In this document: positions 3,891 to 15,549 of the stretch, one piece after another | Numbering within the stretch: the first letter of the stretch is position 1 | Layout of the letters: each line of letters begins with the position of its first letter | Assembly: GCF_000020485.1 (NCBI RefSeq) | Contig: NC_011899.1 | Coordinates: 1,024,501 to 1,088,500 of the forward strand | Direction: 5' to 3' | DNA: 64,000 nucleotides | Source of the DNA: Halothermothrix orenii H 168 | GTDB lineage: Bacteria; Bacillota; Halanaerobiia; Halanaerobiales; Halothermotrichaceae | Notes under the pieces: model-generated | Seen by the model: only the letters and a program-made list of their open reading frames with translations | What the model was told of the DNA's origin: nothing | Databases searched by the model: none | Translations under genes and position numbers: made by a program

Positions 3891-4129
3891 AAGAATGTTA
3901 AATTTTATGTTACGGGGGGTTGATAGGTATTGTGAAAAAGCAAAATAGAAGTATGAAATCTTAAGGGGTTAAAACGGTTATTTACGATGTAGTTAAACAC
4001 ATTTTAGAAATGATATGGGGAATCGGCCATAAACCCGGTTTCATCGATAGTTAATAAGGTTGGCTAGACGAATAAAAAAGCACTAAAAGTAATAATAGTA
4101 TAACAAAATTAAAAATTTCCGCAAAACGT
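3891..4129. other. Intergenic region upstream of the LacI-family gene
   Basis: No convincing gene. It contains an operator-like site (4029-4044) and a short string resembling the beginning of a LacI reading frame (3977-3997) that goes nowhere. The promoter and operator sites that follow are listed separately. Confidence 0.5.
4029..4044. promoter_or_regulatory. LacI-type operator candidate 0
   Basis: ATAAACCCGGTTTCAT, centred on CG at 4036/4037. It matches the shared pattern ATAAAAYC-GRTTTYAT of the four sites around the lacI-like gene and transporter promoter with one mismatch. It lies about 90 bases upstream of the -35 box of the regulator promoter, so it could act in looping rather than direct blockage. 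Confidence 0.45.
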
Positions 4130-4158
4130 TTGACTAATAATTTAAAATGAAGTATAAT
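4130..4158 (+). promoter_or_regulatory. Sigma-A promoter of the LacI-family regulator gene
   Basis: TTGACT (4130-4135), 17-base spacer, TATAAT (4153-4158). The predicted start of transcription near 4165 gives a leader of about 125 bases before the ATG at 4291. A short palindrome, AAACGTTT (4124-4131), overlaps the upstream edge of the -35 box. Confidence 0.8.
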
Positions 4159-4255
4159 ATAGGTAAATAATTTAATTGGTGCGAATATTATATTAAGTTT
4201 TAACAAACAAAAAATTATTAGTATTATTTAATTATATTTTTTATTTTTTAAAAAT

Positions 4256-4271
4256 ATAAAACCGATTTCAT
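4256..4271. promoter_or_regulatory. LacI-type operator candidate 1 (leader of the regulator gene)
   Basis: ATAAAACCGATTTCAT, centred on CG at 4263/4264, ending 19 bases before the ATG of the regulator and about 90 bases downstream of its predicted transcription start. This position fits autoregulation by roadblock. Confidence 0.6.
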
Positions 4272-4290
4272 AATTAAAAGGGTGTTAGTT

Positions 4291-5313
4291 ATGATTACTA
4301 TTTATGATGTAGCTAAGGAAGCGGGAGTTTCACCTTCTACAGTATCAAGAGTTTTAAATAATTATAATAATGTAACTGAAACAACAAGAAAAAAAGTAGA
4401 AGCGGCCTGTAAAAAACTAAAATATGTCCCCAATGCTAATGCCAGTAGCCTTAAAAAAGATAATACTAAAACATTAGCATTAATAATTCCAGATATAGAG
4501 AATCCTTTTTTTATTTCAATTTTAAAAGGATTTGATGATAAGGCTAATAAGTTAGGTTATGATACTATTTTATGTAATACGGATGAAAGGTTAGAGAAAG
4601 AAAAAGATTATATAAAGATGGTATTAAAAAAAAGAATAGATGGTGTAGCTATAAGTACAGTAGGAAAAACGAGTGAACATATAAGTGAATTTAGTGATAG
4701 AAATATTCCATATATATTATTAGATCGTAAAGTTGAGGGATTAGATGCAGATATTGTATGTGGTGATAATTATCAAGGTGCAATAGACTTAGTCAACCAT
4801 CTTATAAATAATGGACATAAGGATATAGCTATGATTACTGGGCCTTTACATGTATCAACTAGTAGAGAGAGATTTGAAGGGTATAAAACTGCTTTAAATA
4901 GAGCAGGTATCAGTGTTGAAGAGGATTATATTAAAATTGATTATGTAAGTCAAGATTATTCTGGAGAAAAAGCTTATGAAATGACAAAGGAATTATTGGG
5001 TTTAAATGAACCCCCAACTGCTATATTTGTAGCTAATAATTTAATGGCCCTGGAAGTTTATAAAGCTTTGAAAGAGGAAGGAATATCTGTACCTGATGAT
5101 ATTGCGATAGTGTGTTTTGATGATCTTAATTTAATTTATGAAATAGAGCCGTTCTTTACTGTTATGAAGCAACCTGCTTATACAATGGGAGAAGCTGCGG
5201 CAGAGATATTAATTAAAAGAATTGAAATGAGTGATAATGGACATAGAAAAAGAAAAATAGTTTTTGAACCAGAATTGATAATCAGAAAATCATCCATTAA
5301 AGATAGTACGTAA
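4291..5313 (+). CDS. LacI-family transcriptional regulator of the fucose-type cluster
   Basis: 340 residues from the ATG at 4291. A GTG nine bases earlier lies inside the ribosome binding site AAGGGTG and is less likely. The N-terminus (ITIYDVAKEAGVSPSTVSRV) is the LacI-family helix-turn-helix and hinge start. The rest is a periplasmic-binding-protein-like sensor domain (LALIIPDIENPFF, then MITGP, then AIVCFDD). It stands directly upstream of, and in the same direction as, the CUT2 importer and fucose genes, so it is probably their sugar-responsive repressor. Five sites with one consensus lie around its own promoter and the importer promoter. Codon use is strikingly AT-rich. The stop codon sits inside a 19-bp tandem duplication. 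Confidence 0.92.
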   Translation: MITIYDVAKEAGVSPSTVSRVLNNYNNVTETTRKKVEAACKKLKYVPNANASSLKKDNTKTLALIIPDIENPFFISILKGFDDKANKLGYDTILCNTDERLEKEKDYIKMVLKKRIDGVAISTVGKTSEHISEFSDRNIPYILLDRKVEGLDADIVCGDNYQGAIDLVNHLINNGHKDIAMITGPLHVSTSRERFEGYKTALNRAGISVEEDYIKIDYVSQDYSGEKAYEMTKELLGLNEPPTAIFVANNLMALEVYKALKEEGISVPDDIAIVCFDDLNLIYEIEPFFTVMKQPAYTMGEAAAEILIKRIEMSDNGHRKRKIVFEPELIIRKSSIKDST

Positions 5314-5333
5314 AATTAAAGATAGTACGTAAA
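5296..5333. repeat. Exact 19-bp tandem duplication over the regulator stop codon
   Basis: ATTAAAGATAGTACGTAAA at 5296-5314 and again at 5315-5333, identical. The TAA of the LacI-family gene (5311-5313) falls in the first copy, so the second copy is untranslated. Confidence 0.95.
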
Positions 5334-5379
5334 ATAAAAAATTAAAAAAATTAAATCAAAAAAATATTTTAAAAAAAGC

Positions 5380-5408
5380 TTGACTATTTAAAATTGATAT
5401 ATTATAAT
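5380..5408 (+). promoter_or_regulatory. Sigma-A promoter for the fucose transport and catabolic operon
   Basis: TTGACT (5380-5385), 17-base spacer, TATAAT (5403-5408), the same two hexamers as the regulator promoter. The predicted start is near 5415, leaving a leader of about 450 bases before the binding-protein gene. The leader holds three operator-like sites and a terminator-like hairpin. Confidence 0.82.
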
Positions 5409-5441
5409 TAAAATAGTAATAATGGCGTGATTTAAAAATAA

Positions 5442-5457
5442 ATAAAATCGGTTTCAT
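5442..5457. promoter_or_regulatory. LacI-type operator candidate 2
   Basis: ATAAAATCGGTTTCAT, centred on CG at 5449/5450, about 35 bases downstream of the predicted start of transcription: a suitable position for repression. Confidence 0.62.
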
Positions 5458-5519
5458 AAAAAATAATATATTAATAAAAATTTATAATAATATATTTAAA
5501 AATATTTTTTTGAAATATC

Positions 5520-5535
5520 ATAAAACCGATTTTAC
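5520..5535. promoter_or_regulatory. LacI-type operator candidate 3
   Basis: ATAAAACCGATTTTAC, centred on CG at 5527/5528, in the leader of the transport operon. The spacing to candidate 2 is 78 bases centre to centre, between seven and eight helical turns. Confidence 0.58.
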
Positions 5536-5595
5536 TAAAAATAAGAACAAAAAGCTTCAATATATGGGGAGTAATATAATATAACTTTTAATAAG

Positions 5596-5642
5596 AACCC
5601 ACATCAACTTTAAGTATTTATTCTTAGAAGTGGGTTTTTTTT
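5596..5642 (+). terminator. Terminator or attenuator hairpin inside the operon leader
   Basis: AACCCAC (5596-5602) pairs with GTGGGTT (5630-5636), with inner pairing TAAG (5611-5614) with CTTA (5623-5626), followed by a run of eight T. It lies downstream of the promoter at 5380-5408 and upstream of the first gene, so transcripts from that promoter must pass it. Either it attenuates the operon or it ends a leader RNA of roughly 230 bases. Confidence 0.72.
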
Positions 5643-5652
5643 AATTTATTTC

Positions 5653-5668
5653 ATAAAAACGGTTTTAT
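5653..5668. promoter_or_regulatory. LacI-type operator candidate 4
   Basis: ATAAAAACGGTTTTAT, nearly perfectly symmetric and centred on CG at 5660/5661. It lies just after the leader terminator and about 195 bases before the binding-protein ATG. It is the most symmetric of the five sites. Confidence 0.6.
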
Positions 5669-5862
5669 AAATACAAAATGTTCTAAATTATATATTAATA
5701 GGGGGTGGTTATATTTGCTAGGTATTTAAACAGTAAAGAAAAATAATTAGTTATAAGGTTTAAGTCATATAATTATAGGAGTATTCAACAAAGAGAATTA
5801 CACAAAAGCAACATATATTTTAAAAAAATTAAAAATATTAAAAAACAGGAGGAGATTTTAAG

Positions 5863-6825
5863 ATGACTAGGAAAGCGTTATTTGTTGCTTTGGTAGTATT
5901 GTTGCTCACAGTTGGATTTTTAAGTGTAGGAGATGTACAGGCATCAGAAAAATATCAAATTTTAGTTAGTCCAAAAGGTTTAAGTCAATCTTATTGGTTA
6001 ACTGTAAAAGCTGGGGCAGAAGCAGCTGCTAAAGAATTAGGTGCAGAAATTGTTTGGAGAGGTCCTGCTCAGGAAACAGATGTGGCTAAACAAGTAAACG
6101 TAATCAATGATTTTGTAAACAAAAAGATAGACGCTATTGTTGTTGCTGCTACTGATGCTAATGCTTTAATACCACCTTTAAAAAGGGCACATGAAGCGGG
6201 AATTCCTGTAATTACTATAGATTCTGGTATTAATGCAGATTTTCCTATATCTCATATAGCTACCAATAATAAAGAAGCTGCCAAGAAAGCGGCTGAAGTT
6301 TTAGCAAATATAATTGGTAAAAAAGGTGAGGTTGCCTGTATACCTTTTGTAGCTGGTGCCGCAACTTCTATAGCCCGTGAAAATGGTTTTAAAGAGGGAA
6401 TTTCAAATTATAAAAATATTGATTTAGTAGCTGTTCAGTATTCCCAGAGTGATTATGCTACAGCAATGAAAGTAACTGAGAATATTTTAACAGCACATCC
6501 AAATTTGAAAGGTATTTTTGCAGCTAATGAAGCAGGAGCAGTTGGTGCGGCAAGAGCCTTGAAAGCTAGAGGAAAAACAGCAGATGTAATATTAGTTGGT
6601 TTTGATGCAGCACAAACTGAGATAGATGCTATGAAAGAAGGTATTATTGATGCCCTGATTGTACAAAGACCATATATGATGGGATATGAAGGGGTAAAAA
6701 ATGCTGTAGCTGCTTTGGAAGGAGAAGAAGTTGAAAAATTAATTGATACAGGAGTAGTTGTAGCCACTCCAGATAACATGAATGACCCTGAAGTTTATAA
6801 AGTCTTATTTCCATTAAAACAATAA
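5863..6825 (+). CDS. CUT2 sugar ABC transporter periplasmic binding protein (RbsB-like)
   Basis: 320 residues. A classical Sec signal peptide (basic start, hydrophobic core about residues 5-22, cleavage near VQAS-EK) without a lipobox cysteine, so the product should be a soluble periplasmic protein, which fits a diderm cell. The mature part has the RbsB/periplasmic-binding-protein type I layout: YWLTVKAGAEAAAKELGAEI, then IVVAATDANALIPPLKRAHE, GIPVITIDSG, and a late VGFDAAQTEIDAMKEG. AGGAGG precedes the ATG by a normal distance. First gene of the operon with the double ATPase and permease. Given the downstream genes, the ligand is probably L-fucose or a related deoxy- or pentose sugar; this is inference. 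Confidence 0.92.
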   Translation: MTRKALFVALVVLLLTVGFLSVGDVQASEKYQILVSPKGLSQSYWLTVKAGAEAAAKELGAEIVWRGPAQETDVAKQVNVINDFVNKKIDAIVVAATDANALIPPLKRAHEAGIPVITIDSGINADFPISHIATNNKEAAKKAAEVLANIIGKKGEVACIPFVAGAATSIARENGFKEGISNYKNIDLVAVQYSQSDYATAMKVTENILTAHPNLKGIFAANEAGAVGAARALKARGKTADVILVGFDAAQTEIDAMKEGIIDALIVQRPYMMGYEGVKNAVAALEGEEVEKLIDTGVVVATPDNMNDPEVYKVLFPLKQ

Positions 6826-6842
6826 AATAACCTATGTATAAA

Positions 6843-6886
6843 CCATTCTCTTCTTCTCTGATCAGAATCAGAGAAGAAGAGAATGG
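6843..6886. other. 20-bp perfect intercistronic hairpin
   Basis: 6843-6862 is the exact reverse complement of 6867-6886, with a four-base loop (CAGA). There is no T-tract on either side, so it is not a normal terminator. It lies between the binding-protein stop and the ribosome binding site of the ATPase gene. In binding-protein-dependent operons such a hairpin usually protects the upstream message and keeps binding protein above transporter level. Confidence 0.9.
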
Positions 6887-6908
6887 ATACAGAAAGGAGG
6901 GTTTCTTC

Positions 6909-8411
6909 TTGAACTATGAAATTGCTGTTAAAATGGAAAAAATAACAAAAGTATTTCCAGGTGTTAAAGCCCTTGATCAGGTTGATTTAGAAGTAAAAAA
7001 AGGAGAAGTTCATGTTTTGTTAGGTGAAAATGGTGCTGGTAAATCTACATTAATGAAAATTTTAACAGGTGTGTATTCAAGGACTGAAGGCGAAATTTAT
7101 ATAGATGGTCAAAAAGTCGAAATTCAGAATACTAAAAAAGCTATGGAACTAGGTATAAGTATGATCTACCAGGAATTTAATTTAGCCCCTCATTTAAATG
7201 TTCAAGAAAATATTTTTCTGGGAAGAGAACCTTTTAAAAATAAGTTATTAGGGTATATAGATGAAGAAAAAATGTATAAAGAAAGTAAAAGAGTATTAAA
7301 GAGATTGGGTGTTAATATATCTCCTGAATCTAAAATAAAAGATTTAGGAGTAGCTCAACAACAAATGGTAGAAATAGCTAAAGCTCTGTCTTTAAATTCA
7401 AAAATTATTATCATGGATGAACCTACAGCAGCTTTAACTGACGAAGAAAAAGAAAATTTATTTGAAGTAATTAAACAATTAAAGAATGAAGGTATTTCAA
7501 TAATATATATATCACATTATATAGAAGAAATTAATAGGATCGGAGATCGAGTTACGGTATTACGAGACGGGAGAAAAATTGATGTTGTACCCGGGTCTAC
7601 TGACCCTGATAAGCTAATATCATTAATGGTTGGAAGGGATGTTGATGAGCTTTTTCCAAAAGAAAAAGTTGATATTAAAGGAGAAACATTACGGGTGGAA
7701 AATATATCCCGGGGAAAAATTTTGAAGAATATATCTTTCACTGCAAGAAAAGGTGAAATTGTTGGTATTGCAGGTTTGGTGGGGTCCGGGAGGACAGAAT
7801 TGCTCAGAGCCATTTTCGGTGCAGACAAAATAGATTCAGGTAAAATATTTGTTAATGGTAACCAAGTAGAAATAAATTCTCCTGGTGATGCTATTGAACT
7901 GGGGTTAGCCCTTGTTCCTGAAAGTAGAAAAGAACATGGATTAAACCTGGGTATGAGTGTCAAGGATAATATTACTTTAACCCATTTAAAAGAATATGTT
8001 AACAATATTTTTATCAATAACGACAAGGAAGAAAAAGTAGGTAAAGAATTTGTAAATAATTTAAGAATTAAAACACCTTCAATAGAACAAAAGGTTAAGT
8101 ATTTAAGTGGTGGTAATCAACAGAAAGTAGTTATAGCCAAATGGCTATCCAGGAAATGCAATATTTTATTTTTCGATGAACCTACAAGAGGGATTGATGT
8201 TGGGGCAAAAGCAGAAATATTTGAATTGATGAACCGTCTGGTGTCAAATGGGGCAACAATAATTATGGTTTCTTCATATTTGCCTGAAGTCCTGGCTATG
8301 AGTGATAGAATTCTTGTTATGTCAAGGGGTGAAATTACGGGGGAATTAAGTTCAAAAGAAGCGACACAGGAAAAAATTATGCATTATGCCACTATGAATG
8401 TAATTAATTAA
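6909..8411 (+). CDS. CUT2 sugar ABC transporter ATP-binding protein (RbsA/MglA-like)
   Basis: 500 residues from a TTG start at 6909, chosen because AGGAGG (6895-6900) sits 8 bases upstream. The frame is open further upstream, but that part runs through the hairpin. Two ABC domains: the first has Walker A GENGAGKST, an AQQQMVEIAKAL signature and Walker B IIIMDEPTAALT; the second has the degenerate Walker A GLVGSGRTE seen in this family, LSGGNQQKVVIAKW and ILFFDEPTRGID. The length equals the usual RbsA size. It energises import with the preceding binding protein and following permease. Confidence 0.95.
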   Translation: MNYEIAVKMEKITKVFPGVKALDQVDLEVKKGEVHVLLGENGAGKSTLMKILTGVYSRTEGEIYIDGQKVEIQNTKKAMELGISMIYQEFNLAPHLNVQENIFLGREPFKNKLLGYIDEEKMYKESKRVLKRLGVNISPESKIKDLGVAQQQMVEIAKALSLNSKIIIMDEPTAALTDEEKENLFEVIKQLKNEGISIIYISHYIEEINRIGDRVTVLRDGRKIDVVPGSTDPDKLISLMVGRDVDELFPKEKVDIKGETLRVENISRGKILKNISFTARKGEIVGIAGLVGSGRTELLRAIFGADKIDSGKIFVNGNQVEINSPGDAIELGLALVPESRKEHGLNLGMSVKDNITLTHLKEYVNNIFINNDKEEKVGKEFVNNLRIKTPSIEQKVKYLSGGNQQKVVIAKWLSRKCNILFFDEPTRGIDVGAKAEIFELMNRLVSNGATIIMVSSYLPEVLAMSDRILVMSRGEITGELSSKEATQEKIMHYATMNVIN

Positions 8412-8439
8412 AAATTAAATTAAAAAGGAGTGAAAAATA

Positions 8440-9408
8440 GTGATTGATAATGGTGTCAATGAAACCCAAATGAGTTTTTTTAAGAGGTTTTCTGAGAAGA
8501 TTATTCCTTTTACTGGATTATTGATAATTTGTATAATACTTTCTATTGCATCACCCTATTTTCTTACCTTAACTAATATTATGGCTATAGGTATTCAGAC
8601 TACAGTTATTGCCATATTAGGTATAGGTGTTACGTTTGTAATAATTACTGCTGGAATAGATTTATCTGTGGGGTCAGTACTAGGATTAGCAGGAGTAATA
8701 ACTACCATAAGTATGGCTAATGGAATCAATATGTATTTATCTATTATTTTTGGATTATTGGTTGGTGCAGCAATAGGTTTTGTTAATGGTCTAGTGACGA
8801 CCAAGGGTAAGATCCATTCTTTTATCGCAACTTTAGGTATGATGGGTATTGCCAGGGGATTAGCATTAATAATTACAGGAGGTATTCCAGTCTCAGGTTT
8901 ACCAAGTGAATTTGATTTTATGGGAGCAGGAAAAATATTTGGTTTTTTTCCAGTACCGGTTTTTATTTTAATTATTGTTGCTATAATAGCACATTTAATT
9001 TTATCGAAGACAAGAATAGGAAGATATACATATGCAATAGGTAGTAACGCAGAAGCAACTCGCCTGTCAGGTGTTAAAGTTGATAAATATTTAATAATTG
9101 TTTTTACTATATCAGGGTTGATGGCATCATTAGGTGGCATAGTTCAGGCCTCTAGATTAGTAACCGGACAGCCTACTGCTGGAACAGGTTATGAGTTAGA
9201 TGCTATTGCTGCTGCAGTAATCGGTGGAACAAGTTTATTGGGTGGAGAAGGAAGTATTTTAGGTACAATAATTGGAGCCCTAATTATGGGTGTGCTAAGA
9301 AATGGTGCTAATTTATTAAATATATCTGAATTTATTCAACAGGTTTTAATTGGGATAATTATAATTTCAGCTGTTATTTATGATAGACACCGCCGTAGTA
9401 AGAATTAA
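8440..9408 (+). CDS. CUT2 sugar ABC transporter permease (RbsC-like)
   Basis: 322 residues from a GTG with AAGGAG about 8 bases upstream. Eight or more hydrophobic segments and the RbsC-family landmarks ITAGIDLSVGSVLGLAG (about residues 69-85), VNGLVTTKGKIHSFIATLG, and YAIGSNAEATRLSGVKV near residue 200, the cytoplasmic loop that docks on the ATPase. It probably forms a homodimer in the inner membrane. The isomerase gene follows after 53 bases with its own strong ribosome binding site, so import and catabolism are one transcription unit. Confidence 0.94.
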   Translation: MIDNGVNETQMSFFKRFSEKIIPFTGLLIICIILSIASPYFLTLTNIMAIGIQTTVIAILGIGVTFVIITAGIDLSVGSVLGLAGVITTISMANGINMYLSIIFGLLVGAAIGFVNGLVTTKGKIHSFIATLGMMGIARGLALIITGGIPVSGLPSEFDFMGAGKIFGFFPVPVFILIIVAIIAHLILSKTRIGRYTYAIGSNAEATRLSGVKVDKYLIIVFTISGLMASLGGIVQASRLVTGQPTAGTGYELDAIAAAVIGGTSLLGGEGSILGTIIGALIMGVLRNGANLLNISEFIQQVLIGIIIISAVIYDRHRRSKN

Positions 9409-9461
9409 ATTAAAAAATAATATTCTTTAAAAATAATTTAGATTTTATAGGAGGTAAAATT

Positions 9462-11273
9462 ATGTCAAATAAAACAAATTTAAAAATTAACAAACAACAT
9501 CGCTTAAGAGGTAATTTACCTAAAATCGGCATAAGGCCTGCTATTGATGGTCGTCGCAAGGGAATTAGAGAATCATTAGAAGGTCAGACAATGGGAATGG
9601 CTAAAGCTGTGGCTAATTTTTTAGAAGAAAATCTGAAGTATCCAAATGGTACACCTGTAGAATGTGTTATTGCTGATACTTGTATAGGTGGGGTAGCAGA
9701 AGCAGCTGCTACGGCTGAAAAGTTTTCACGAGAAGGTGTTGGAGTTTCGATTACAGTTTCACCATGCTGGTGTTATGGTTCAGAAACAATGGATATGAAT
9801 CCATTGATACCAAAAGCCATCTGGGGTTTTAATGGTACTGAAAGACCTGGTGCAGTTTATTTAGCTGCTCTTAAAGCGGCACATGATCAGAAAGGGTTAC
9901 CTATTTTCCCTATATATGGACGTCAAGTTCAGGATGCTGATGATAGAAGTATTCCAGAAGATGTTCAGGAAAAAATGCTCCGGTTTGCCAAGGCTGGATT
10001 AGCTGTGGCTATTATGCGTGGTAAGTCTTATCTGTCTATGGGTTCAGTTTCTATGGGAATTGCAGGTTCTATGGTTAATGAAGATTTCTTTCAGGAGTAT
10101 TTGGGTATGAGAAATGAATATGTAGATATGTCAGAATTTATAAGAAGAATGGAAGAAGAAATTTATGATAAAGCTGAATTTAAAAGAGCAATGAAGTGGG
10201 TAAAAGAAAATTGTAATGAAGGTAAAGATAACAATCCCCCTCAAGTTCAACATTCTAGAGAGACAAAAGATGAAGAATGGGAAACAGTAGTTAAGATGAC
10301 TTTAATAGCAAGAGATTTGATGGTTGGTAATCCCAAACTTGCTGAAATGGGTTATGGAGAAGAGGCTATGGGTCATAATGCTATAGCCGCAGGTTTTCAG
10401 GGTCAAAGACAATGGACTGATCATTTTCCAAATGGTGACTTTATGGAAGCTATTTTAAATTCTTCTTTTGACTGGAATGGACTCAGGGAGCCATTTATTA
10501 TGGCTACTGAGAATGATACTTTAAATGGAGTATCAATGTTATTTGGTCATTTATTAACTAATACAGCTCAAATATTTGCTGACGTAAGAACTTATTGGAG
10601 TCCAGAATCAGTTAAGAGAGTAACTGATAAGGAATTAACTGGTAGAGCCCAAAATGGTATTATCCATTTAATTAATTCAGGTTCAGCAACATTAGATGGG
10701 ACCGGTCAGCAAACTAAAAATGGTAGGCCTGTGATGAAACCTTTCTGGGAAATTAGTTCAGAAGAAGTTGAAGCTTGTCTTGAAGCGACTTCATGGCGAC
10801 CTGCTATGTTGGATTATTTTAGAGGAGGAGGATTCTCGTCTAATTATTTAACTAAAGGTGGCATGCCATTAACAATGATTAGAATAAATATTATTAAAGG
10901 ATTGGGACCGGTCCTCCAGATTGCTGAAGGTTATTCAGTAGATTTACCTGAAGACGTTCATAGAATTCTGGATCAGAGAACTGATCCTACCTGGCCTACT
11001 ACATGGTTTGCTCCTATATTGACAGGAAAAGGTGCTTTTAAAGATGTTTATTCAGTAATGAATAGATGGGGAGCAAATCATGCAGCTGTCAGTTATGGTC
11101 ATATTGGTGGAGATTTAATTACTCTAGCTGCTATGCTTAGAATCCCTGTTGCTATGCATAATGTATCAGAAGATAAAATTTTTAGGCCAAGTGCCTGGGA
11201 TGGTTTTGGGACTAATGATTTAGAGGGAGCAGACTATCGTGCATGCAAGACTTTTGGACCTTTATATGGGTGA
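9462..11273 (+). CDS. fucI: L-fucose isomerase
   Basis: 603 residues, close to E. coli FucI (591). It converts L-fucose to L-fuculose (and D-arabinose to D-ribulose) in a Mn2+-dependent reaction. The sequence starts [19 protein letters not shown] and carries [24 protein letters not shown] and [13 protein letters not shown]. Candidate metal ligands are E350 (in MATENDT) and D374 (in ADVRTYW), whose 24-residue spacing equals that of the E. coli ligands Glu337/Asp361 as I recall them, plus H547 in [14 protein letters not shown] precedes the ATG. Neighbours supply uptake, anomer interconversion, phosphorylation and cleavage. Confidence 0.97.
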
Positions 11274-11327
11274 ATGAATTCATTATTTTAACAAAGTTTA
11301 GTTGCTTATAATAAGGGGGTTTATGAG

Positions 11328-12863
11328 GTGGATTATTTAATAGGGGTAGATATAGGAACTCAAGGAACAAAAGCTATAATGATTAATAATCAAGGAAAAA
11401 TTATTGCTCAAAGTTATAAAGGGTATAATGTAGAAACACCTAAACCTTCTTGGGCTGAACAATGGCCAGATGTTTGGGTAAATGCAACATATTTTACCCT
11501 GCAAAATGTTATTGAACAATCCAAGGTTGATCCAACTAAAATTAAAGGTGTTGCGATCAGTAGCTTATACGGAGGGTCAGGTATTCCTGTTGATGAAAAA
11601 GTTACCCCCCTGGCTCCCTGTTTAATATGGATGGACCGTAGGGCCGAAGAAGAAGTTAAATGGGTAAAAGAAAATATTGACTTGCAAGAACTATTTCAGA
11701 TTACAGGTAATTTTGTTGATTCCTATTATGGGTTTACGAAAATGTTATGGATTAAAAATAACTGGCCCGATGTGTGGAGGAAAATCAATCTATTTTTACC
11801 GCCAAATGCCTTTGTGATTTATCAATTAACAGGTGAAATAGCAATTGATTATTCTTCAGCAGGTAATATAGGTGGAATATTTGATATAAAACACAGGAAA
11901 TGGTCAACTAAGATGTTAGAAAAAATGGGTATTCCTTTAGAATACCAACCCCAAAAGATAATTTCTTCAACTGATATAGTAGGTAAAATTACTAAACAGG
12001 CAGCAGAAAAAACTGGGTTAAAAGTAGGAACTCCAGTAATTGCAGGAGGGGTAGATGCAGCTGTAGCAACTTTGAGTGCAGGGGCTTTAAGTGAAGGAGA
12101 TCATGTAGCTATGATTGGCACTTCTATGTGCTGGGGATTTATTACAGAAAAAAGTAATATATCAAAGAAATTAGTTACTATGCCCCATGTAATTGATCCT
12201 TTAAATAAATTATATACATTCGGTGGTGCTGCGACAGCAGGTGCAATTATTAGATGGTTCAGGGATAAATTGGGAGAGGAAGAATTAGCTGTTGAAAAGA
12301 AACTTGATATTAATGCATATACCCTGTTGGAAATGAAATGCAAAGATATACCAGCTGGTTCAGAAGGTTTATTAGTGCTTCCTTATTTCATGGGTGAGAG
12401 AAGTCCCATCTGGGATAGTAATGCAAGGGGGACTATTATTGGCCTTAATCTTTACCACAACAAATATCATTTATATAAGGCCTTTATGGAAGGGGTAGCA
12501 TATGCGTTAAGACATAATATGGAATCTGTTTTTAACAAAGATATAAATTTAGATGGAGAAGTAATTTTAGTTGGTGGTGCAGCTAAATCAAAGATCTGGC
12601 CTAAAATATTTGCAGACGTTACTGGTTTTCCAGTCAAAATAATTAAAAATGATGTAGAAGCTCCTTTAGGAGATGCTTTATTAGCTGGTGTAGGAACAGG
12701 TGTTATAAAAAATCCTGATATTTTAAAAGAATGGTTAATTTATGAAGACATAATTATGCCAGACAGGACAAACAAAGAAATATATGATGAATATTATGTG
12801 CAGTATAAAACAGCTTATATGAACTTGAAAAGTAATATGGAAGTTTTATCTCAATTAGGATGA
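11328..12863 (+). CDS. FGGY-family sugar kinase, possible L-fuculokinase
   Basis: 511 residues from GTG (AAGGGGG 8 bases upstream). FGGY kinase fold: phosphate-binding start IGVDIGTQGTKAI, sugar-binding region WMDRRAEEE, a GGVDAAVATLSAGAL segment, and the C-terminal ATPase half with GGAAKSKIWPKIFADVTG and APLGDALLAGVG. It looks more like the xylulokinase-type branch than like RhaB. Placed between fucI and fucU, it could phosphorylate L-fuculose at C1 to give the aldolase substrate. A second FGGY kinase of a different branch follows two genes later, so the split of substrates is unclear. Family certain, substrate inferred. Confidence 0.88.
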   Translation: MDYLIGVDIGTQGTKAIMINNQGKIIAQSYKGYNVETPKPSWAEQWPDVWVNATYFTLQNVIEQSKVDPTKIKGVAISSLYGGSGIPVDEKVTPLAPCLIWMDRRAEEEVKWVKENIDLQELFQITGNFVDSYYGFTKMLWIKNNWPDVWRKINLFLPPNAFVIYQLTGEIAIDYSSAGNIGGIFDIKHRKWSTKMLEKMGIPLEYQPQKIISSTDIVGKITKQAAEKTGLKVGTPVIAGGVDAAVATLSAGALSEGDHVAMIGTSMCWGFITEKSNISKKLVTMPHVIDPLNKLYTFGGAATAGAIIRWFRDKLGEEELAVEKKLDINAYTLLEMKCKDIPAGSEGLLVLPYFMGERSPIWDSNARGTIIGLNLYHNKYHLYKAFMEGVAYALRHNMESVFNKDINLDGEVILVGGAAKSKIWPKIFADVTGFPVKIIKNDVEAPLGDALLAGVGTGVIKNPDILKEWLIYEDIIMPDRTNKEIYDEYYVQYKTAYMNLKSNMEVLSQLG

Positions 12864-12897
12864 AATTTCAGATAAATAGGACCAAGGAGGTCATCAT

Positions 12898-13317
12898 ATG
12901 GTAAAGGGTGGGTTGATTCATCCACATATATTAGAAAGTGTTGCAGCTGCTGGACATGGTGCACAAATATTAATAACTGATGGAAATTATCCAGCTTCTA
13001 CTAAAACAAAAGAAGATGTAAACAAAGTATATTTAAATCTTGCTCCGGGGTTAGTTAATGTTACTGATGTACTTAAAGTTTTAGTTGAAGTTATTAATAT
13101 AGAAGAGGCTACGGTAATGGCACCATCAAAAGGAGACAAGCCAGCTATATTTAAGGAATTTAAAAGAATATTAAGTTCTGGAACAGATTTTAATGAAATT
13201 GGACGTTTTGAATTTTACGACAAATGTGTATCTAATCAAGATCTATGCTTAGTCATTGTTACAGGGGAACAGAGAATATATGCCAATATATTATTGACAA
13301 TTGGTGTAGTAAAATAA
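12898..13317 (+). CDS. fucU: L-fucose mutarotase (FucU/RbsD family)
   Basis: 139 residues, against 140 for E. coli FucU. It interconverts the alpha and beta anomers of L-fucose (RbsD relatives act on ribose) so that isomerase and transporter receive the right form. The N-terminus GGLIHPHILESVAAAGHGAQ holds the conserved His residues, followed by ITDGNYPAST, the FucU/RbsD substrate loop; a C-terminal Tyr near residue 129 (RIYAN) fits the family's catalytic Tyr. AAGGAGG precedes the ATG. FucU and RbsD are close relatives; the fucI context decides the name. Confidence 0.9.
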   Translation: MVKGGLIHPHILESVAAAGHGAQILITDGNYPASTKTKEDVNKVYLNLAPGLVNVTDVLKVLVEVINIEEATVMAPSKGDKPAIFKEFKRILSSGTDFNEIGRFEFYDKCVSNQDLCLVIVTGEQRIYANILLTIGVVK

Positions 13318-13334
13318 TTTATAATATTTAAGAA

Positions 13335-13370
13335 AATACCTGGCCTGGTATGTATTTAGGGCCAGGTATT
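13335..13370. other. Intercistronic hairpin after fucU
   Basis: AATACCTGGC (13335-13344) pairs perfectly with GCCAGGTATT (13361-13370), with a 16-base loop and no T-tract downstream. It sits in the longest gap of the catabolic operon (130 bases) and may be a processing or stability element, or a partial terminator. Confidence 0.75.
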
Positions 13371-13447
13371 AAAGTTCTGATTATTACTGAAGTATCTTAA
13401 TGAAAAATTTTAAGGAAAAAGTTTTATATTTTTAAGGAGGTGATCTG

Positions 13448-14878
13448 ATGAATGAATACTTAAATCTTTTAGCTATTGATTTAGGTGCTTCTAATGGTCG
13501 GGCCATTATAGGTAAATATGATGGTAACAAAATAAAACTAGAAGAAGTGCATAAATTTAAAAATGGTCCAGAAAGGGTAACAAATAACTTATACTGGGAT
13601 ATTTTAAGACTTTTTCATGAAGTAAAAACCGGTATTACAAAAGCAAGTGAGTTTACAGATTATAATATAAGTAGTCTTGGTATAGATACCTGGGGGGTTG
13701 ATTATGGTTTATTAGATAGAGAGGGTAATTTACTGTCAAACCCTTATCATTATAGAGATAATAGGACTGATGGTTTATTAAAAGAAATATATAAAAAAGT
13801 TAGTAAAAAAAGGATATACCAATTGACTGGAATTCAATTCATGCAATTAAACACTCTGGTTCAGCTCTATGCAGATTTGAAATATCGACCATGGGTTTTA
13901 AATAATGCTAAAAGTCTTTTGTTTACTCCAGATTTAATAAATTATTTTTTAACTGGAAAAAAATATAATGAATTTACTATATCATCAACTTCACAATTGC
14001 TTAATCCGCTTACAGAGAAATGGGAACATGAACTCTTTGAAGAATTAGATATTCCCAGTAATATTGTGGAAACTTTAATTTACCCTGGAACGAAAATAGG
14101 TAATATTATACCTGAGGTAAAAGAAGAGTGTGGGCTTAGGGGAGATTTGCCTGTAATTGCTGTTGGAAGTCATGATACAGCATCAGCAGTGGCTGCAACA
14201 CCTTTAGAGGATAATAAAAATAGTATTTATATAAGTAGTGGGACCTGGTCACTGTTAGGGATGGAACTTGACCAGCCAATAATTAATGAAAAATCATTAA
14301 AAGAAAATTTTACTAATGAATGTGGTGTTGGTAAAAAAATAACTTTCCTAAAGAATATGTGTGGTTTATGGATGATTCAAGAATGTAAACGAATTTGGGA
14401 AAGAGAAGGCTTAGATATAAGTTATTCAGAAATTAGTAAGGCTGCCATGGAAGTTGATTCTTTTATATTTAATGTAAATCCTGATGATCCCAGATTTTTA
14501 AATCCCAAAAATATGCCCTTGGCTATAAAAGAATATTGTCAGGAAACTGAACAACAAATACCATGTAATTATGCAGAAATGGCCAGAGGTATTTATGAAA
14601 GTTTAGCGTTGAATTATAAAAGGGTTATAGATAAATTAGAAAAAATTGTAGGTGTTAAAATTGATAAAATACATATGGTAGGTGGAGGTATAAAAGCAGA
14701 AATATTATGCCAATTCACAGCAAATGTAACCGGAAAAACGGTTATAGCAGGTCCAGTTGAAGCTACTGCTATGGGAAATATACTGGCTCAGCTAATGGCC
14801 CGGGGAGAAATTAAAAATTTAAAAGAAGGTCGAGAAATAATTAAAAATTCAGTTGAATTAAAACATTATAACCCTTAA
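13448..14878 (+). CDS. FGGY-family kinase, rhamnulokinase-like
   Basis: 476 residues, ATG preceded by AAGGAGGTGATC, a near-perfect ribosome binding site. RhaB-type landmarks: LLAIDLGASNGRAIIGKYDG, GIDTWGVDYGLLD, YHYRDNRTDG, AVGSHDTASAVAATP, SSGTWSLLGMEL and a C-terminal MVGGGIKAEILCQFTANVTG with AMGNILAQLMARGE. By family it is an L-rhamnulose kinase, but no rhamnose isomerase is in the window, and fuculose-1-phosphate aldolase follows 26 bases later. It may be the working L-fuculokinase here, since the two ketoses are epimers. Substrate unresolved. Confidence 0.88.
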   Translation: MNEYLNLLAIDLGASNGRAIIGKYDGNKIKLEEVHKFKNGPERVTNNLYWDILRLFHEVKTGITKASEFTDYNISSLGIDTWGVDYGLLDREGNLLSNPYHYRDNRTDGLLKEIYKKVSKKRIYQLTGIQFMQLNTLVQLYADLKYRPWVLNNAKSLLFTPDLINYFLTGKKYNEFTISSTSQLLNPLTEKWEHELFEELDIPSNIVETLIYPGTKIGNIIPEVKEECGLRGDLPVIAVGSHDTASAVAATPLEDNKNSIYISSGTWSLLGMELDQPIINEKSLKENFTNECGVGKKITFLKNMCGLWMIQECKRIWEREGLDISYSEISKAAMEVDSFIFNVNPDDPRFLNPKNMPLAIKEYCQETEQQIPCNYAEMARGIYESLALNYKRVIDKLEKIVGVKIDKIHMVGGGIKAEILCQFTANVTGKTVIAGPVEATAMGNILAQLMARGEIKNLKEGREIIKNSVELKHYNP

Positions 14879-14904
14879 TTAAAATCAGATAGGTGGTGTG
14901 TAAA

Positions 14905-15549
14905 TTGCTTTTAGAAAAAGAACGAAAACAGATAGTTGAATATGGCAAGAAATTAATAGATTCAGGTTTGACCAGGGGAACAGGAGGAAATATAAGTATA
15001 TTTAATTTTGAAAAAAAGTTAATGGCAATTAGTCCAACAGGTATAGAATATTTTGATACTTCTCCGGAAGATGTCGTAGTTATGAACTTAAATGGGAAAA
15101 TTGTAGAAGGAAGCAAAAAGCCTTCCAGTGAATACAGGATGCATCTTATTTTTTATAAAAATCGAAATGATGTTGGTGCTGTAGTACATACTCATTCTAT
15201 TTATGCAGCAACAATAGCATCTTTAAGATGGGAATTGCCTCCTGTTCATTATATGATTGCAGTTGCTGGTAATAAAGTACCCTGTGCAGAATATGCTAGT
15301 TTTGGAACAGAAGAATTAGCTACCAATGCGTTTAAAAGTGTGGGAGAAACATATAACGCTACATTATTGGCTAATCATGGTTTAATAGCTTTGGGTAAAA
15401 ATATCTCTGAAGCATTTAAAGTAGCAGAAGAGATTGAGTTTACAGCTGAAGTTTATTATAGAGCTAAAGCTATTGGGGAGCCTGTAATTTTACCAGAGGA
15501 AGAAATGAAAGTTATGTTAAATAAATTTAAAACGTATGGTCAACAATGA
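14905..15549 (+). CDS. fucA: L-fuculose-1-phosphate aldolase
   Basis: 214 residues from TTG at 14905, which AGGTGG (14891-14896) serves at 8 bases; an upstream GTG falls inside that ribosome binding site. Class II zinc aldolase: cleaves fuculose-1-phosphate to dihydroxyacetone phosphate and L-lactaldehyde. E76, H95, H97 and H158 correspond, all with the same +3 offset, to the E. coli FucA residues Glu73, His92, His94 and His155 as I recall them. TRGTGGNIS near residue 25 is the phosphate-binding region. Last gene of the operon. No lactaldehyde reductase or dehydrogenase is nearby, so that step must be encoded elsewhere. Confidence 0.95.
   Translation: MLLEKERKQIVEYGKKLIDSGLTRGTGGNISIFNFEKKLMAISPTGIEYFDTSPEDVVVMNLNGKIVEGSKKPSSEYRMHLIFYKNRNDVGAVVHTHSIYAATIASLRWELPPVHYMIAVAGNKVPCAEYASFGTEELATNAFKSVGETYNATLLANHGLIALGKNISEAFKVAEEIEFTAEVYYRAKAIGEPVILPEEEMKVMLNKFKTYGQQ

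Follow-up and report, generated by a model that had tools for sequence, protein, structure and literature searches.

A candidate repressor-gated transcription terminator in the leader of the L-fucose operon of Halothermothrix orenii

Why should a terminator-like hairpin stand between the promoter of a sugar operon and the first gene of that operon? The question is raised by a stretch of 64,000 nucleotides from Halothermothrix orenii H 168, hereafter the window. The organism grows optimally at 60 °C and 10% NaCl, and its chromosome is a single contig of 2,578,146 bp (PMC2626281). The initial annotation had offered two answers, namely that the operon is attenuated, or that its promoter makes a separate RNA of about 230 bases and the operon is started from an unseen promoter after position 5642. 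Our analysis points to a different one, a terminator gated by a DNA-bound repressor, a reading to which we assign a probability of roughly 0.57. Features of the locus are given in Table 1.

Table 1. Features of the fucose locus, in positions of the window
Feature	Position	Strand	Basis or remark
Promoter TTGACT-17-TATAAT before lacI	4130..4158	+	Promoter score equal to that of the 5380-5408 site
U-tract (T6AT6) ahead of lacI operator Ob	4237..4249	+	Sequence
Operator Ob before lacI	4253..4274		TAAAACCGATTTCA at 4257-4270
lacI-family repressor gene	4291..5313	+	Profile; probable fucose regulator by neighbourhood
Sigma-A-type promoter TTGACT-17-TATAAT, fuc operon leader	5380..5408	+	Start expected near 5415
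Operator O1	5439..5460		22-bp frame on TAAAATCGGTTTCA at 5443-5456; no U-tract ahead; motif also in G008
U-tract (T7) ahead of O2	5505..5511	+	Coincides with predicted RNA:DNA hybrid of an O2-stalled polymerase
Operator O2	5517..5538		TAAAACCGATTTTA at 5521-5534
Terminator-like hairpin	5593..5639	+	Arms AAGAACCCAC (5593-5602) and GTGGGTTTTT (5630-5639); G-C core 5598-5602 with 5630-5634; loop about 27 nt
Hairpin U-tract (T8)	5635..5642	+	Sequence
Operator O3	5650..5671		TAAAAACGGTTTTA at 5654-5667; centre 26.5 nt past last hairpin G
L-fucose operon	5863..15549	+	Gene calls and profile assignment

The operon contains genes for a sugar-binding protein, an ATPase, a permease, FucI, an FGGY kinase, a FucU/RbsD-like protein, a rhamnulokinase-like protein and an L-fuculose-phosphate aldolase. 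FucI scored above two NCBIfam equivalog cut-offs and the aldolase above one; the transport genes, the kinase genes and the LacI-type regulator were assigned to family level only. Both FGGY kinases (11328-14878), one xylulokinase-like and one rhamnulokinase-like, scored below the L-fuculokinase cut-off. Judging from gene neighbourhood, the LacI-type regulator is probably the fucose regulator. A 19-bp tandem duplication (ATTAAAGATAGTACGTAAA, two copies) at 5292-5342 runs across the lacI stop codon, and the gene end is repeated just downstream. In addition, a candidate remnant of a second lacI start was observed at 3970-4060 (TATTTACGATGTAGTTAA, 16 of 18 positions shared with the lacI start; marginal in blastn, E 0.02-0.07). 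It is accompanied by an operator-like site at 4030, and a relative of another family in the same order, G008, retains two tandem lacI copies.

Both elements on which the initial annotation was built are present. The TTGACT-17-TATAAT promoter is the best sigma-A-like site in the gap between lacI and the operon, with a score of 11.1 against 5.2 for the runner-up, the scorer using general base frequencies. Bare consensus matches are not rare (13 sites found versus 13.5 expected in 2.5 kb, both strands), and a site as good occurred in 7 of 37 long co-directional gaps, own gap included, in our H. orenii background sample of 464 kb (the window plus 20 stretches of 20 kb). The stem-loop followed by eight T begins 184 nt past the -10 box, and its last U lies 220 nt before the ATG. 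It has the G-C-anchored stem and following U-tract of an intrinsic terminator (10 pairs, 4 of them G-C, then T8), and a folding energy of -13.9 kcal/mol at 37 °C and -5.4 at 60 °C with the A-U extension. It was missing from the automatic scanner list because of its 27-nt loop, the scanner permitting loops of 3-8 nt. The proposal that any transcript from the visible promoter must pass a leader terminator was supported.

Two LacI operators had been counted in the leader; the gap contains three (5443, 5521 and 5654), with another before lacI (4257). The one that the initial annotation missed, O3, begins 11 nt past the last U of the hairpin. The underlying motif, TAAAAYCGRTTTYAT, has five sites at the locus (4030, 4257, 5443, 5521 and 5654), and among the forward-strand genome places listed its exact matches were two, both at the fuc locus. 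A search of the H. orenii genome with a general LacI consensus gave no match. Centres of O1, O2 and O3 lie 41.5, 119.5 and 252.5 nt past the -10 box, which places all three downstream of the expected start, and the adjacent LacI-type repressor would be expected to bind them.

What would a polymerase do at these operators? In E. coli, when LacI stalls a polymerase, the RNA 3' end stops 3-4 nt short of the 22-bp operator (PMC4499122), and at a promoter-operator spacing of 30 bp polymerase was reported to travel at most 25 bp (PMC4132739). Using this geometry, borrowed from E. coli LacI and E. coli polymerase, we predicted the 10-nt hybrids TTTTTTAATT for O3, ATTTTTTTGA for O2, TTTATTTTTT for Ob and CGTGATTTAA for O1. 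The RNA 3' end of an O3-stalled polymerase is predicted at 5645-5647, and the distance from hairpin to 3' end would be 7-9 nt counted from the A-U extension or 12 nt counted from the last G-C pair. The spacing of hairpin, T-rich hybrid and blocker site would fit an arrangement of the RNA polymerase I (Pol I) type. U-tracts coincide with the predicted stall hybrid at three of the four operators, a result matched by random placement in 0.66% of trials (p 0.0066), which is weak evidence, a lead and not proof, since the flanks of O2, O3 and Ob are alike (Ob/O2 75% over 65 nt, blastn E 3e-6; O2/O3 79% over 38 nt).

At other loci, operators were located as recurrent CG-centred palindromes in gaps beside LacI genes by a finder blind to T-tracts. 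It returned 69 CG-centred sites versus 2, 4 and 6 with a GC, AT or TA centre at equal minimum G+C; the latter are too few for a rate, yet they indicate that the finder picks LacI-type sites. A U-tract was defined as 8 or more T in the predicted hybrid window, and three controls were used: same-side A, and T or A counted on the other strand at the opposite side. The T measure was devised after the window had been seen, and the threshold of 8 was set on the first 80 relative loci, before the replication analysis. Loci were hand-picked from among matches listed by E-value. The locus of the window (L110), a locus overlapping another (L112, with L101) and the G008 fuc locus, which had already been seen (L123), were excluded from the sets; for L121-L149, 28 of 29 loci were taken with other flanks and only that copy was counted.

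In an early trial with 11 looser H. orenii sites, 6 had a U-tract at threshold 7. The stricter finder drops two sites of locus L120; of the 9 sites left, 4 have at least 7 T and 2 have at least 8, and the same-side A control gives 1. At the strict threshold, other H. orenii loci (sites in 5 of 18 loci, 9 sites) thus gave 2 U-tracts versus 1, 0 and 0 in the controls, and the first set of relatives (sites in 11 of 80 loci, 26 operator-directions) gave 6 versus 0, 0 and 0. The replication set comprised 81 loci, 53 from the order and 28 from the class, of which 18 had sites, with 45 operator-directions; U-tracts were present in 14 of these versus 1, 2 and 2 of 45 in the controls (Fisher p 2.9e-6, controls pooled). 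The replication set includes orthologues of sites in the first set and sites orthologous to one another, and without sites of related flanks the figures were 8 of 29 versus 0, 2 and 1 (p 6e-4). Over all sets, U-tracts were found in 22 of 80 operator-directions versus 2, 2 and 2, or in 15 of 62 versus 1, 2 and 1 when flanks at least 60% identical were collapsed; the remaining 58 of 80 fell below the strict threshold.

Over all sets, operators with a strong promoter at least 30 nt upstream had a U-tract in 11 of 22 cases (non-redundant, 6 of 11), against 0 of 13 where the strong promoter was nearer than 30 nt (non-redundant, 0 of 12; p 0.002 for 0/13 versus 11/22), and those with no promoter scoring 9 or more had one in 11 of 45 (non-redundant, 9 of 39). 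The background U-tract rate, matched for promoter distance, was 1.7% in the H. orenii sample and 4.1% in LacI loci without found operators. T content was highest between positions -21 and -16 relative to the operator centre, and at -18 to -16 its frequency was 0.66 versus 0.29-0.41 at most non-operator places (n=67, far or no strong promoter). A palindromic operator has no means of distinguishing one flank from the other, and a bias aligned with the direction of transcription therefore argues for a transcriptional role.

The combination with a hairpin was also found elsewhere. Hairpins of the form AAGAAC...GTTCTTTTT, wobble forms included and with good energy, numbered five in the 1.52 Mb examined (overlaps included): those of the window, L296, L287, L299 and L267. 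The L267 hairpin lies inside an ORF with no operator after it. Each of the other four precedes a LacI-type palindrome, and the distance from last stem G to operator centre is 26.5 nt in both the window and L296, 27.5 nt in L287 and 28.5 nt in L299. The operators behind these four hairpins differ: the O3 sequence in the window, then CGGTAACGTTAACG, CGGAAACGTTACCG and CGCAAGCGGTTGCG.

L296 and L287 carry a LacI-type gene and come from two species of one genus, in a family other than that of H. orenii; in L296, a ribokinase-like gene follows (read by eye). Both consist of a TTGACA/TATAAT promoter, a U-tract with operator at 50 nt, the hairpin, a U-tract and an operator at 196 nt, with 255 or 120 nt from the last operator to the gene, and so share the order of promoter, operator, hairpin and operator with the window. 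The stem base AAGAACCCAC/GTGGGTT is identical in all three, and common descent of the leader element is therefore possible. At the three stem differences between L296 and L287 (C-G/U-G, U-G/U-A and A-U/G-U), pairing is kept in 3 of 3, all by one-sided changes. Their hairpins are strong (-33.6 and -30.3 kcal/mol) and might terminate unaided. By an automatic measure, a hairpin of -6 kcal/mol or better stood ahead of 4 of 22 U-tract operators (L296, L299, L300 and L265) versus 2 of 58 others. The distances of palindromes from any hairpin-plus-T site showed a small bump at 25-29 nt, partly made up of overlapping frames of the same sites. A further candidate, in L297 (2183-2241), consists of a hairpin and U-tract with a LacI-type palindrome 24.5 nt beyond.

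Relatives of the fucose locus itself gave a different picture. G008 has two lacI copies at 65% identity and a fucI at 79% identity, and the same operator motif occurs before each lacI copy and before fucI, which supports the H. orenii operators. Its lacI-b operator starts 8 positions past the -10 box of a TTGACA-18-TATAAT promoter. Within 38 genomes of the order plus a sample of 398 from the phylum, only G008 had a close regulator (65% identity); four further genomes of the order gave regulator matches at 43-44%. Eleven of 12 non-own fucI neighbourhoods were examined, and the operator motif was present in G008 only; for the sugar-binding protein, a search of genome contigs found only two relatives. 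Conservation of the leader in relatives had been suggested as a check. At G008, the sole orthologous fuc locus whose regulator is close, none of the three operators has a U-tract (T counts 3, 6 and 5), and the stretch from operator to fucI lacks a hairpin terminator; hence the device is not conserved at the fuc operon. Two other observations were made at these loci. In G018 (L065, 4031-4059 of the reverse complement), a terminator-like hairpin with T7 (-13.8 kcal/mol) precedes fucI without this operator motif, and upstream of G008 lacI-a a CRISPR-like array with repeat GTTTTAATCGCACCAGAGTGGAATTGAAAT was seen by eye (L066, 10400-10700, minus strand).

The sequence features, their geometry and the U-tract enrichment in related loci are established, and from them we infer repressor binding, stalling, release and induction by fucose as follows. 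Transcription would start near 5415 and cross a leader in which the adjacent LacI-type regulator would have three operators. Repressor bound at O3 would stall polymerase with its RNA 3' end at about 5645-5647, the hybrid then being at its weakest, made up of the U-tract at 5635-5642 and the following A/T, with the hairpin foot 7-9 or 12 nt behind. The pause would give the weak hairpin time to form and free the RNA. An inducer, presumably fucose, would strip the repressor, and most polymerases could then proceed into the operon. O2 may represent a simpler copy of the device, with repressor and U-tract and no hairpin, and Ob before lacI likewise. The lack of a U-tract at O1 counts against a gated terminator.

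The chief rival is a plain weak terminator. On this account, an intrinsic terminator serves lacI and the leader with partial, unregulated read-through, O3 lies close by accident, and the operators work through looping or as simple roadblocks. The hairpin is the sole hairpin-plus-U signal that the scan found between lacI and the operon. Of the 37 long co-directional gaps, 23 contain a hairpin of -10 kcal/mol or better, and among 24 strong gap hairpins 7 are located over 200 nt beyond the stop codon; the distance of this hairpin from lacI is therefore not odd per se. Judged on folding energy only, with a less strict T-tract, it does not stand out, since 427 hairpins inside genes reach -10 in the 464 kb. 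Defined as a class (at least 6 pairs, at least 4 G-C, loop up to 30 nt, T-tract), its stem was seen in 0 of 1000 dinucleotide shuffles of the 549-bp gap, and co-directional gaps contained 10 hairpins of the class with loops of 9-30 nt in 41.5 kb of gene strand, against 22 in some 818 kb of sequence lying outside gaps, both strands counted, a density about 9 times higher. However, the hairpin stands downstream of the operon's own best promoter, an order of promoter, hairpin and gene found in 4 of 37 long gaps of the sample, own gap counted. One of the other three (L098) is a SAM riboswitch leader, so this order can mark regulated leaders and is not unique. By the measure common to the sample, the hairpin has only -3.0 kcal/mol at 60 °C, and 24 of 32 listed gap hairpins are stronger (-6.5 to -15.2); unaided, it is probably a poor terminator at this temperature. 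Recurrence of the hairpin-operator spacing in other LacI leaders also argues against accident, and we regard a plain terminator as unlikely. Elsewhere in H. orenii, two minus-strand gaps (L093 8192-8932 and L095 6274-6865) have a strong promoter and a hairpin terminator before the gene and no Rfam match at gathering score, and are candidate unknown leaders.

Attenuation, the first answer of the initial annotation, stands as far as a terminator in the leader is concerned. In its classical form, an antiterminator fold, an RNA-binding factor or a ligand chooses between termination and read-through. The leader position of the hairpin would suit this, as would a weak upstream partner for its 5' arm (AUAUGGGG) and a conserved AAGUGG in L296 and L287 that could pair with CCACUU. 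An alternative anti-terminator fold had been suggested as something to look for, but the best upstream pairing was equalled by 149 of 500 shuffles in the window, and by 116 and 110 of 500 in L296 and L287. The window leader matched no Rfam family, either at gathering score or with E relaxed to 5, and L287, L296, L297 and L299 had none at gathering score. The CAT_RBD domain of BglG had 0 matches in the genome, with 4 of 14 control genomes positive; an ANTAR search was uninformative, since no control genome was positive. A known riboswitch or Rfam leader and BglG/LicT antitermination were rejected on these grounds, and so was a leader peptide before the hairpin, as no ORF with a listed ribosome-binding site was found upstream of it. 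Classical attenuation thus appears quite improbable.

The second answer, a separate regulatory RNA with the operon started by a promoter after 5642, received no support. An RNA of about 228 nt (5415-5642) is indeed expected and its length fits. The later part of the leader does contain features, as a strong ribosome-binding site (AGGGGGTGG) and then a mini-ORF, TTG-CTA-GGT-ATT-TAA, were observed at 5700-5729, 133 nt before the first gene. In G008, moreover, the best-scoring promoters before fucI are downstream of the operator. Against this, the best promoter score wholly downstream of 5642 was 3.2, versus 11.1 at 5380-5408, and on this basis an operon promoter after the hairpin was rejected; moreover, no RNA similar to the H. 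orenii leader RNA was seen in the G008 leaders. We consider a separate RNA very unlikely. A remnant of an IS200/IS605-type element or MITE, considered because of the large-loop hairpin, was rejected, as the hairpin is single-copy in the genome (30 genome matches to a 125-base query, only the own locus exceeding about 31 nt).

The repressor-gated terminator that we favor resembles two known systems. In transcriptional roadblocking, a repressor bound downstream of the promoter halts the elongating polymerase, as described for LacI, PurR, GalR, CcpA and CodY (PMC4132739, PMC10310618). Repression by a LacI roadblock was 25-fold at most, the clearing of stalled polymerase was ascribed mainly to Mfd, and multiple roadblocks were proposed for cases that call for a wide range (PMC4132739). 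The accessible parts of these sources describe no U-tract or hairpin at the stall site of known systems, whereas H. orenii has both, and the U-tract here is specific to strand and side. Those parts of the review PMC10310618 contain nothing on U-tracts at repressor roadblocks, and a literature search from which subscription journals were mostly absent found no bacterial work on the subject. No H. orenii transcriptome or LacI-regulon paper was found in the literature search either.

The second system is the Pol I terminator with Reb1, Nsi1 or TTF1, in which a hairpin, a non-template T-rich stretch and a DNA-bound blocker stand in the same order (PMC12366685). It is eukaryotic and lies at the end of the rRNA genes, whereas the H. 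orenii device would be bacterial, with a probable sugar-responsive repressor as blocker. Pol I stalls 15 bp short of the site, where its hairpin is still 20 nt away from the 3' end, and it must therefore backtrack. Release is fast when block, T-rich stretch and hairpin are combined, and a Pol I stopped 8 bp behind the hairpin terminated quickly whichever of two kinds of block was used (PMC12366685). The distance of 7-12 nt predicted for H. orenii is near the bacterial value of about 8 (PMC12366685). In the same work, termination by yeast Pol I at the Lac repressor was slow, and LexA did not support it at a distance requiring backtracking (PMC12366685), which cautions against easy transfer to a gated terminator. 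Leader attenuators and intrinsic terminators, such as that of the SAM riboswitch in L098, likewise place a hairpin and U-tract between promoter and first gene. In contrast, no described aptamer, leader family or peptide and no significant antiterminator was found in the H. orenii leader; its stem is weak, its loop has 27 nt and its proposed gate is bound to DNA.

A broader proposal is that LacI repressors in the class of H. orenii often act as switchable termination factors, with distal operators carrying a U-tract at the stall hybrid and a full form adding a hairpin at fixed distance, a bacterial inducible counterpart of the Pol I terminator of Reb1, T-rich stretch and hairpin. We advance this tentatively, at slightly less than even odds. 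If it is true, operators would have a built-in release signal that turns a repressor into an on/off termination factor, and multi-operator leaders would make sense. It would also provide a design rule, hairpin, U-tract and operator with about 27 nt from last G to operator centre, and the same three-part logic would operate in bacterial regulation and eukaryotic rRNA termination.
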